Shown here one piece after another: positions 10,227 to 21,531 of a DNA stretch of 28,541 nt (position 1 is the stretch's first letter; the number at the start of each line of letters is the position of its first letter). Under the pieces are notes generated by a model. It was not told the origin of the DNA. It searched no databases and saw nothing but the letters and a program-made list of their open reading frames with translations. Origin of the DNA: a virus. Made by a program: the position numbers and the translations under genes. The stretch is taken from the IMG/VR virus record IMGVR_UViG_3300025466_000137, positions 1 through 28,541 of that record; one strand, given 5' to 3'.

Positions 10227-10671
10227 TGTAAGCATTGGTCTTAATCACTTTCCCCCCGTTGATGCACTTGCTGGTCTCCGTACGTTCTAACCGTATTGGA
10301 GGCATCAAATCACCATTGTGATCGGCAATCTTGATGGTCAAAATGAGACCGTCTGGCACGAGGTACAGGAATCCGTAGAACGGGACACATAGAGATTTTG
10401 CAAGGTTGGCACCGTGTACGATTTTTTCGTAAGTCACCAACCACTCGTCCCCCCACTTGGAAAGTTGATCACGGGTCATTTGTCGGCACTTGCTTTCAAA
10501 GCACGAGGTGATCTCATTGTTTCGAATCGTAAACCCATCCACCTTGGAAGGGTTATGCTTAGGGGTATTGACAAACATACTGTCAGGAAAAGTGATCCGT
10601 AGTGAGTCGAGCATTTCCTGCTCCTCCCGTGCAGATTCCTGTCCTTTAGGGGTAAGAATATCAAGACTCAT
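10180..10671 (-). CDS. PD-(D/E)XK nuclease-like protein
   Basis: 163 aa. A restriction-endonuclease-like core is visible: K-V-D-G-F-T-I (Asp45), then a strand ending C-F-E-S-K-C (Glu59, Lys61) and Q-M-T-R-D-Q-L, with an N-terminal helix bearing Glu16/Glu17. This D...E-x-K arrangement is the catalytic pattern of the fold, although the overall sequence matches no family I can name. It is coupled to the helicase-loader gene by ATGA, so it belongs to the replication operon. Residues 34-37 (VNTP) are encoded by a degenerate copy of the dispersed motif. The 3' end overlaps the convergent cassette by 47 bp. Confidence 0.6.
   Translation of the reverse strand: MSLDILTPKGQESAREEQEMLDSLRITFPDSMFVNTPKHNPSKVDGFTIRNNEITSCFESKCRQMTRDQLSKWGDEWLVTYEKIVHGANLAKSLCVPFYGFLYLVPDGLILTIKIADHNGDLMPPIRLERTETSKCINGGKVIKTNAYINVTGAGSIRYMPPC
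10561..10576. promoter_or_regulatory. Weak motif copy AGGGGTATTGACAAAC
   Basis: Degenerate relative of the dyad copies at 3378 and 5517 (shared GTATTGACA), inside the PD-(D/E)XK gene. Listed with low confidence. Confidence 0.2.
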
Positions 10672-11357
10672 AATTTCACAATGCTGGAAAACTCTGCCAG
10701 TCTCCTGACGATTGCCTCACCCCGATCTTGGGAAAACATTGCAAGCAATCCCTTGGCATCCGAATTGGATGTCCAGATAGTAGGCAGTCGGTGAGATGTC
10801 CGGTACTCTAGGATGTCGTAGAGTTCGGCTTCTGCTCGGTCTGTCATCCGTCCCTTACCGAGGTCATCAAGGAGGAGTAAGTCAGCACTCTTGCAAAGTT
10901 TGAGTGCAGATTGTGCAATCACCTTGATGGCAGGACTGTCGGCAAACTGGTTGGCAGCATTGAGGGACAAATCCGGTGATGTCAGAAAAAACGTATTCTT
11001 TCCAACATCTTGGATCCGTTTAAGGAGTATAATGGCTGCCCTCGTCTTGCCAGCACCGGAGGTGCCGATAAACCCTAGTCCCATTGGTTGATATGACCAC
11101 GTCAGTACCGGAGTCGTTAAAGCCTCTGGCAGTCGTTCTAAATCCGTGTCGTGGTAGATCGGAGGGATCATGAGGTTAAAACGAGTCTGAGAGGCATTTC
11201 TGGCGTTCCTAGCAGGTGCCTCTTTCTGGTCTTGGGTGTATTTAAGGCAGCAGTCATCACAATTCCTCTGGAAATAAATGACCTTGCCATTGAATTGGAT
11301 GGGTTCGTGCTCGTAGGGGATGGAGCAGGTTTCACAAATGGAATGAACGGTTGTCAT
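10668..11357 (-). CDS. DnaC/IstB-type helicase loader ATPase
   Basis: 229 aa AAA+ protein. The N-terminus has cysteine pairs (Cys8/Cys11 and Cys33/Cys36) that probably form a zinc finger. Walker A is GTSGAGKT at 98-105, Walker B is LLLLDDLGK at 160-168, sensor I is TSNSD at 196-200, and an arginine pair near 218-219 could be the finger. This is the size and layout of DnaC-like loaders, which place the host replicative helicase at an origin opened by an initiator. The initiator candidate is two genes upstream in the same operon, as with lambda O and P. It is followed by a coupled PD-(D/E)XK gene. Confidence 0.88.
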   Translation of the reverse strand: MTTVHSICETCSIPYEHEPIQFNGKVIYFQRNCDDCCLKYTQDQKEAPARNARNASQTRFNLMIPPIYHDTDLERLPEALTTPVLTWSYQPMGLGFIGTSGAGKTRAAIILLKRIQDVGKNTFFLTSPDLSLNAANQFADSPAIKVIAQSALKLCKSADLLLLDDLGKGRMTDRAEAELYDILEYRTSHRLPTIWTSNSDAKGLLAMFSQDRGEAIVRRLAEFSSIVKL

Positions 11358-11905: not shown

Positions 11906-12577
11906 TTAGAATGCTGATGCAAATTTGGAGTTGTTGACTGACATGGTGGTTGGTTTGTTTCCGGTAGGGGGAGGGGGGAAAATCCCTTGCCACCCGTTGC
12001 TGATGGTGAGTCCGATTGCCGTGATTGCTGCCTGATGTCCCCATTGATCCATTTCCATGAGCTTGGCTTTCACCGAGGAGGGTTTGAGCACAGAGAGACC
12101 TCTCTCCTTTCGATACTGCACGTACTGATCCCAATTCATCCGAAAAGTCTCCGTATCCAGACCCTTGGGAAAAACTGGAGGTGCTGGCACCGACTTCTTA
12201 TTCTTTTCTGTCTCTTTCTCTGTCTCTGTCTCTCTCTCTCTCTCTGAGGTAGCATGTTGCAAGCAAGGTGCTAGCACCGTGCTAGCATCCCCTTGGACAA
12301 CTTCAAAGAATCCCTTATCAATGAGTGGTTTAAGTCCACTCATCACATCCTTGGTGCTGACCCGTAGTCGGAAGACTAGTTCCTCGGTGCTGGCATCAAA
12401 GGTGCCATCCGGTGACTCGGATGCTAGCAACCAAAGGAGTGGTGCTAGCCCCTTGCTAGCAAGATCCAACCCCATGAAATCTCGGTTATTGAGCAAATCA
12501 CGGTGGAGCTTAATCCAAGGGGGTGTCCGATGGTTATAGTGCTGGAATTTACTCCAGTTTTTAGGTTTGAGTTTCAT
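11906..12577 (-). CDS. Replication initiator (lambda O / DnaD-like)
   Basis: 223 aa. The N-terminal ~90 residues (NWSKFQHYNHRTPPWIKLHR, then LASKGLAPLLWLLASE and EELVFRLRV) look like the winged-helix domain of phage initiator and replisome-organiser proteins. A charged linker (ERERETETEKETEK, residues ~112-125) is encoded by a polypurine repeat. The C-terminal domain (FRMNWDQYVQYRKERGLSVL, then KAKLMEMDQWGHQAAITAIG) resembles the helicase-contact region of DnaD/O-type proteins. It lies upstream of the DnaC-like loader. The gene contains clustered GCTAGC repeats, so it probably also holds the origin. Exact family is unproven. Confidence 0.72.
   Translation of the reverse strand: MKLKPKNWSKFQHYNHRTPPWIKLHRDLLNNRDFMGLDLASKGLAPLLWLLASESPDGTFDASTEELVFRLRVSTKDVMSGLKPLIDKGFFEVVQGDASTVLAPCLQHATSERERETETEKETEKNKKSVPAPPVFPKGLDTETFRMNWDQYVQYRKERGLSVLKPSSVKAKLMEMDQWGHQAAITAIGLTISNGWQGIFPPPPTGNKPTTMSVNNSKFASAF
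12200..12246. repeat. Polypyrimidine/polypurine tract in initiator gene
   Basis: An almost pure CT run on the plus strand, with only isolated G residues, ending in about ten CT dinucleotides. It encodes the Glu/Arg/Thr/Lys linker of the initiator. It lies 24 bp from the first GCTAGC repeat. Such tracts can form non-B DNA and may help unwinding at an origin; this role is inference. Confidence 0.7.
12267..12460. other. Candidate replication origin: five GCTAGC repeats
   Basis: GCTAGC occurs at 12270, 12281, 12423, 12444 and 12455, spaced by 11 bp or 21 bp inside two clusters, i.e. on the same face of the helix. The first is inside a 12-bp palindrome, GGTGCTAGCACC (12267-12278). The copies fall in different codon frames, so protein constraint does not explain them. 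An 8-bp inverted repeat, ATGAGTGG/CCACTCAT (12321-12343), lies between clusters. Only two other GCTAGC were seen elsewhere (1904, 21124). Confidence 0.6.
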
Positions 12578-21105: not shown

Positions 21106-21531
21106 TTAGGGGTTGGTAAGGGTGCTAGCAACTTTTTCAGAAAAGTTTTCTTTCTGAGTGTTTTGGGGGTTTGAGACTGAAGGGTGATCCGTGGAATAAA
21201 CTCCATCGATTGGGCAACCACGATCATTCCACCTACGAAGAATGTCGTTAGACATGTCTTTAGGGTAAGAAGTAGAAACCGAAATTGCCGAGGTCGTGGG
21301 CACTGCTGCCGTGATAGCAATCGTGGCACTCGTCACAATTCCATCATTGGTCGTGTCGGTCACCGTGTAGGCACTGCTATTAAGCGTTGTTGCGATTCCC
21401 GTGGAGGTCACCACGGTAGCTACAATCAAGTCAGAATCCTTGATAAAAGGGTAAGGGAAAGTAACAGTCTGACCTGCCGTGTTTGTCCCCGTGACGAGGA
21501 TCTGATTGTTAGGGAATGGATCTAATGACAT
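21106..21531 (-). CDS. Short fibre-type protein (141 aa)
   Basis: From the ATG at 21531: MSLDPFPNNQILVTGTNTAG. The section T-V-T-F-P-Y-P-F-I-K-D-S-D-L-I-V-A-T-V, then N-S-S-A-Y-T-V-T, resembles the N-terminal virion-anchoring domain of T7-like fibres and has the same layout as the start of the larger fibre next door. It ends after a polar C-terminus (K-D-M-S-N-D-I-L-R-R-W-N-D-R-G). It could be an anchor that joins the adhesin to the tail, or a duplicated fibre stub. The upstream ATG at 21573 is not used here since it lies inside the previous gene. Confidence 0.65.
   Translation of the reverse strand: MSLDPFPNNQILVTGTNTAGQTVTFPYPFIKDSDLIVATVVTSTGIATTLNSSAYTVTDTTNDGIVTSATIAITAAVPTTSAISVSTSYPKDMSNDILRRWNDRGCPIDGVYSTDHPSVSNPQNTQKENFSEKVASTLTNP

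Follow-up and report, generated by a model that had tools for sequence, protein, structure and literature searches.

Spaced palindromes and a purine tract inside a phage initiator gene: a proposed replication origin in a large family of phages

The initiator gene and its repeats

The window, i.e. the whole 28,541-bp stretch of DNA analysed here, is a linear virus fragment with a minus-strand gene for a replication initiator and, two genes downstream of it, a gene for a DnaC-like helicase loader, the expected partner of the initiator. The initiator is laid out as a winged-helix N-domain (around residues 1-96), a low-complexity Glu/Arg/Thr linker and an O-like/DnaD-like C-terminal domain. In profile searches, PHROG 26426 ‘replication protein’ matched the N-terminal domain of the 11906-12577 product (E 1.1e-31) and also 62/62 aligned relatives, PHROG 678 (O-like) matched the C-terminal part only (E 6e-6), and PHROG 186 (DnaD-like) gave a weak match. 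None of the 62 family members had a match at E 0.01 to the Pfam families Phage_rep_O or RepA_N (PF06970), the window protein scored 14.1 bits (E 0.053) for the DnaD N-terminal domain (PF21984) without reaching its gathering score of 27, and no Pfam family threshold was passed by the initiator N-domain.

The AlphaFold model of the initiator (pLDDT 83) places the helices of the winged-helix N-domain at residues 39-52, 64-71 and 75-87. The top four VIA-align matches were plasmid-initiator entries, one of them a Rep-DNA complex, with Z scores of 6.4-6.7 over 75-77 residues; we take these structures to be RepA_N proteins of staphylococcal plasmids. The matches are modest, i.e. the candidates came from Foldseek, where E was only around 1-2, and a Z below 8 can reflect merely a common arrangement. 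The DnaD N-domain (2v79) reached a fold Z of 4.9 with the N-domain model. We found no convincing sequence relative of the initiator with a solved structure, and no relative of the N-domain in the plasmid collection searched.

The features of the locus are as follows, with all sites given on the minus strand.

11906..12577 (-), initiator gene, 223 aa (PHROG matches, AlphaFold model)
12454..12461 (-), iteron of cluster 1, TGCTAGCA, over Ala40-Ser41; GCTAGC here in 41/43 close relatives
12443..12450 (-), iteron of cluster 1, GGCTAGCA, over Leu44-Ala45; 11 bp from the preceding site; exact in 17/43 relatives
12422..12429 (-), iteron of cluster 1, TGCTAGCA, over Leu51-Ala52; 21 bp from the preceding site; 27/43 relatives
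12388..12395 (-), weak iteron-like site TGCCAGCA, one mismatch; occupied only sometimes in relatives
12280..12287 (-), iteron of cluster 2, first in the tandem array, TGCTAGCA, over Ala98-Ser99
12269..12276 (-), iteron of cluster 2, second, TGCTAGCA, over Leu102-Ala103
12258..12265 (-), iteron of cluster 2, third, TGCTTGCA; an exact copy would read TGC-TAG (stop)
12247..12254 (-), half-site TGCTACCT at the fourth array position; TGCTA or TGAT kept in relatives
12201..12246 (-), purine-rich GAGA/GAGACA tract (CT-rich on the plus strand), encoding the Glu/Arg/Thr linker
12182..12189 (-), outlying iteron-like site TGCCAGCA past the tract, one mismatch, in the window gene
10668..11357 (-), DnaC-like helicase loader (PHROG 50, E 2e-26; Pfam IstB_IS21)

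GCTAGC occurs seven times in the window, compared with 1.9 expected, and 0/100 shuffles reached seven. As an earlier note on this DNA had described, five of the seven are clustered within 12270-12460, all inside the minus-strand initiator ORF, starting at 12270, 12281, 12423, 12444 and 12455 (gaps of 11, 142, 21 and 11 bp). The fuller repeat unit is the 8-bp palindrome TGCTAGCA, to which eight sites in the gene correspond with at most one mismatch (offsets 116, 127, 148, 182, 290, 301, 312 and 388). The window has no second cluster of this unit, only isolated single copies elsewhere. The two remaining GCTAGC are single (21124-21129 and 1904-1909), the former lying in an exact TGCTAGCA (21123-21130) outside the initiator gene.

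The GCTAGC copies do stand in different codon frames as had been claimed, Ala-Ser in one and Leu-Ala in another, and the third frame of the coding strand would hold a stop (TGC TAG). The further claim, that the protein does not force them, is borne out by two codon-preserving nulls: when codons were redrawn by genome usage with the protein kept, 0/20,000 genes reached five GCTAGC (maximum 3), and when the gene's own codons were permuted, 0/20,000 did so (maximum 4). TGCTAGCA contains an NheI site, and the text matches that we found in the literature look like unrelated cloning or primer uses; among open-licence papers we found no description of TGCTAGCA as an iteron.

Conservation of the repeats in relatives

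Viral contigs were searched protein first with the motif QHY[KRN]xRxPxW, which overlaps none of the repeats; at least 567 relatives were confirmed, the best 80 were kept, and 43 of these differ by at least 10 %. Each of the 43 close relatives has two or more GCTAGC copies within the gene (three or more in 38/43) and 40/43 have at least two TGCTAGCA, the density of GCTAGC being 5.7 per kb in the initiator gene vs 0.08 per kb in the flanks. The offsets recur, i.e. 117 in 41 relatives, 290 in 38, 149 in 27, 279 in 22 and 128 in 17, with 11, 32, 130 and 21 as the commonest gaps. Ala-Ser at the sites is written GCTAGC in 67/73 cases vs 29/640 in the flanking ORFs, and Leu-Ala is written CTAGC- in 92/115 vs 61/823. 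Loss of the repeats from related initiator genes had been named as an outcome that would refute an origin here; instead, the repeats are kept and codons are chosen for them. The idea that the sites face the same side of the DNA holds within clusters, where they are 11 and 21 bp apart, and is not shown between clusters, because the inter-cluster distance varies among relatives.

A pattern-first scan of viral contigs for TGCTAGCA-N3-TGCTAGCA returned at least 119 loci, and among the matches listed the tandem lay inside an ORF matching the N-domain profile at 89 of 119; the same pattern read backwards, as a control, gave five loci in the whole collection. In individual phages, 3/3 copies of TGCTAGCA in PLPE, 3/4 in phiV208 and 3/5 in Cr-LKS3 fall inside the initiator gene. 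Titration avoidance, i.e. that the sites are shunned elsewhere in the genome, was considered and rejected: the density of TGCTAGCA in the flanks is around random expectation, with no difference favouring avoidance.

The locus L002, which shares only the C-terminal domain with the window protein (87 % identity), and L005-L008 encode another type of N-domain. Their initiator genes lack GCTAGC, and TGCTAGCA is absent from the whole locus in these C-terminal-only relatives. Since the sites are missing where the N-domain is of another type, the repeats travel with the N-domain; they are conserved at the DNA level and depend on the N-domain type. The gene at L002:9599-10291 amounts to a natural domain swap, with a close C-terminal relative joined to a wholly different N-domain and without iterons. 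Among the family members is also Limnohabitans phage DC33 (L179, PQ492659.1), which is filed under Inoviridae, yet its 39-kb record carries this tailed-phage initiator family, and the label looks doubtful.

Palindrome classes, reading frames and the purine tract

In Xanthomonas phage PBR31, the same gene lacks GCTAGC and carries CGATATCA at offsets 266, 277 and 288. A scan for TGATATCA-N3-TGATATCA, an A+T-rich pattern with a higher background, gave at least 120 loci, and among the matches listed the tandem lay inside a gene of the initiator family at 71 of 120. We assembled a non-redundant protein-first set of 90 relatives from the matches listed, with three further scans added (two of viral contigs, one of genome contigs): 63 have at least two GCTAGC (class A), 20 have GATATC instead (class B) and seven are others, so that 83/90 carry at least two copies of GCTAGC or GATATC. 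One of the seven, L526, carries TTGCAA five times, and pairs spaced by 11 bp occur in each of its two clusters. The GCTAGC, GATATC and TTGCAA arrays have the same 11-bp spacing and a similar position in the gene; clear arrays are missing in six of the 90 relatives.

Class B is nearly a single clade, with class A sequences next to it and perhaps nested within it, according to a quick, weakly resolved tree that does not resolve the number of palindrome switches; the closest pair across the classes (L139 and L409) is 62 % identical. All class A proteins have Tyr at residue 14 and all class B proteins have Phe, while the TTGCAA protein has Tyr as well, a rule that is based on the pattern-first loci and the A4 search, as the search motifs A2 and A5 required QHY. 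Residue 14 may mark or set palindrome specificity. Because class B is nearly one clade, a comparison of conserved residues between the classes is confounded by descent, and the difference may mark descent rather than specificity.

The 11-bp step shifts the reading frame from copy to copy. The first two copies of the linker array stand in frames where the palindrome is readable; at the third, a perfect TGCTAGCA would put TGC-TAG into the frame, and a perfect TGATATCA would put TGA there. Among 53 class A genes, none is exact at this third copy, yet 32 match at least six of eight bases, and 35/44 mismatches affect the TAG codon. Among 51 class B genes, again none is exact, yet 50 match at least six of eight; 32 of these sites are CGATATCA and 10 are GGATATCA, only the T of the stop being altered. 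The third copy is thus off consensus in both classes because an exact copy creates an in-frame stop. At the fourth, a half-site is retained (TGCTA or TGAT). This pattern is hard to explain except by DNA-level selection within the limits of the genetic code. As a case of overlapping coding, the protein sequence of the DNA-binding domain and the linker is partly a shadow of the sites, with deviations dictated largely by stop codons. Cluster 1 lies in the code for the DNA-binding domain (helix 39-52), so that Ala40-Ser41 and Leu51-Ala52 are partly dictated by the DNA sites.

The CT/GA tract that had been noticed next to the repeats (around 12201-12246) is real and conserved. At least eight pentamers of the GAGACA/GAGA type lie within 110 nt of the last iteron in 76/89 relatives vs 0.07 % of control windows, and the tract starts around 33 bp after the second array copy in both palindrome classes; the pentamer set was picked after the sequences had been seen, and slippage could add copies. 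Within the tract of class A genes, Glu is written GAG in 86 % of cases (47 % elsewhere in these genes), Arg AGA in 64 % (17 %) and Thr ACA in 80 % (27 %), and class B is alike, i.e. position and codon choice persist in both classes. Together, the linker array and the tract are the best kept element of the initiator family.

The conserved GAGACA/GAGA tract is not A+T-rich, its A+T content being about 0.5. A search for an A+T-rich unwinding element gave no strong peak, with an A+T maximum of only 0.59-0.65 just before the linker array. The 8-bp inverted repeat that had also been reported beside the repeats does exist in the window (12321-12328 / 12336-12343); it is not conserved in relatives and should be dropped from the origin model.

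The origin reading and known systems

We propose, with a probability of around 80 %, that the array at 12.2-12.5 kb is the replication origin of this phage, embedded in the gene for its own initiator. Sequence comparison supports this reading strongly, without experimental proof of binding or replication; the earlier note's placing of an origin inside this gene gains its support from repeats kept in every close relative (43/43) and in 83/90 wider ones. As proposed, the winged-helix N-domain would bind the 8-bp palindromes (TGCTAGCA), about one helical turn apart and forming one cluster in the DNA that encodes the DNA-binding domain and another in the DNA that encodes the linker; the nucleoprotein complex would open the DNA at or beside the GAGACA/GAGA tract, where the C-terminal domain and the DnaC-like loader would bring in the host's DnaB helicase. 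It is only inferred that the N-domain binds the sites, that the strands open at the tract, that the helicase is loaded there and that the array is the sole origin. The two clusters might differ in role, e.g. origin and autoregulation.

Cumulative GC skew, which had been suggested as a check, agrees in part. Among seven relatives annotated as complete genomes, five (Cr-LKS3, PLPE, phiV208, PBR31 and ct2t2046) have their detrended minimum no more than around 2 kb from the gene, but it is not near the gene in DC33, in ctEw122 or in the 36-kb contig from a phage nearly identical to that of the window. GC skew is confounded by divergent transcription.

The palindromes could instead be operators through which the initiator represses transcription of its own gene, with the origin elsewhere. 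A winged-helix regulator acting as a dimer could well bind palindromes, and cluster 1, at offset 117, is not far from the start of the gene; however, the sites lie 117-320 nt within the gene and not at a promoter, the linker array has a set place next to a conserved purine tract, for which an operator has no need, and in the known systems related by fold and arrangement such sites serve as origins. We therefore regard operators as unlikely. Equally improbable in our view is that the gene-internal array serves only as an auxiliary or late origin, or in incompatibility or control, like the extra iterons of some plasmids: there are two clusters, the first variable in number, and the GC skew of the window's own phage does not point here, yet the linker array with its tract is what the family keeps best, and the window is without any other TGCTAGCA cluster.

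A role of the repeats in mRNA or as DNA cruciforms is mostly refuted, and very little is left of it. Two tandem palindromes separated by 3 nt can fold together into an 8-bp hairpin, and the segment has a more stable fold than its shuffled versions (z -4.65), an effect that palindromes yield automatically; but imperfect 11-bp pairs are complementary in 0/42 class A and 0/65 class B cases, neighbouring copies show no covariation above shuffles, 101/237 class A sites stand alone, and there is no Rfam match. Least tenable of all, and refuted by the codon tests, is that protein-level constraint or codon habit makes the repeats without any DNA function: the AS-x-x-LA peptides are themselves conserved, but codon choice at the sites is strongly unlike that of flanking genes, codon-preserving nulls do not reproduce the repeats, the same places encode other peptides in class B (DI, IS, RYQ), with three reading frames in use, and third copies deviate mainly at the would-be stop codon.

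An origin inside the initiator gene, with sites kept via synonymous codons, appears to be carried by hundreds of little-studied phages. This provides a testable origin for a family of more than 500 members in viral contigs; the genome papers of PBR31 and PLPE, in the passages that we searched, mention neither an origin of replication nor iterons. The family also offers a range of naturally occurring initiator-site pairs whose palindrome has changed and whose geometry has not, useful for studying winged-helix site choice, and it suggests that in uncultivated phages the sequence by itself can suffice to locate an origin.

In lambda, four iterons and an A+T-rich tract lie inside O (PMC7466680). 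The lambda analogy drawn in the earlier note fits, in that an origin lies within the gene of its initiator and a tract of biased composition comes after it: lambda ori in gene O, like that of the Stx phages P27 and 933W, has iterons mid-gene, an adjoining biased tract and a helicase loader nearby (PMC7466680). Repeated sites in the initiator gene that are kept at the DNA level, as expected of a lambda-type origin, are found here, whereas the adjoining A+T-rich unwinding tract is not. The four iterons of lambda are longer and form a single block, and its tract is A+T-rich; the window family, in contrast, has 8-bp palindromes at 11 bp in two clusters, one of them inside the code for the DNA-binding domain, and a GAGACA-type tract.

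In pSK41-type plasmids, Rep boxes inside rep, in the code for the linker, are bound by the winged-helix N-domain (PMC5703833). These RepA_N replicons share with the window family the sites inside the initiator gene and provide the best structural matches of the model, but the window family is a phage gene without relatives in the plasmid collection, and its sites lie also in the domain code. The gene-embedded origin is best explained as lambda-like or RepA_N-like, bound by the winged-helix N-domain, with binding inferred. DnaD-like phage helicase loaders or replisome organisers (PHROG 186, Phage_rep_org_N) show weak profile matches and a similar domain order; however, the matches are below Pfam cut-offs, and this iteron type is undescribed for DnaD-like loaders in the papers found.

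The same layout of palindromes and a tract seems to recur in further initiator families. The ‘RepA-like’ initiators of the mycobacteriophages Butters, BigNuz and Fishburne and of Gordonia phage ODay have clustered TCGCGA palindromes in the gene, largely 11-bp spaced, and the array is followed by a simple-sequence tract, of GGAACAGG-type repeats in Butters, Fishburne and BigNuz and of GGAGCAGG in ODay; they differ in initiator family, palindrome and tract. A paper on repeats by repA of other mycobacteriophages does not mention this layout (PMC7157519). The TCGCGA sites form two clusters in these genes (L571:1498-2367 in Butters, L569:1498-2388 in Fishburne, L574:701-1597 in BigNuz and L576:701-1522 in ODay). 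The mycobacteriophages Rebel and Charlie (L572:695-1585 and L573:695-1588), with another N-domain, keep the GGAACAGG tract without a TCGCGA array; therefore, tract and iterons can part. In addition, the initiators of Pseudomonas phages Fyn8 and JBD44, Hafnia phage yong1 and Vibrio phage 36E38.1 (L563, L564, L566 and L568) have TGATTCC-type repeats in the linker code, possibly a tract of a third kind, and the initiators of PHROG 16167/17247/12556/2149 and 9474 at L158, L126, L083 and L159 have tandem copies of TGCTAGCA in the linker that follows the winged helix; L149 seems similar.

It is tempting to speculate, at what we consider even odds, that one origin grammar is common to a large phage group, i.e. 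8-bp palindromes spaced by around one turn and a simple-sequence tract, inside the initiator gene, with TGCTAGCA, TGATATCA or TTGCAA as the palindrome, and TCGCGA in other initiator families. As the palindrome is switched by lineage while position and spacing are nearly fixed, initiator specificity and origin would travel together as one self-contained gene segment. The arrangement of an origin within its initiator was already known from the systems above; new are the palindromes, their switch between lineages, the sites inside the code for the DNA-binding domain and the purine tract.
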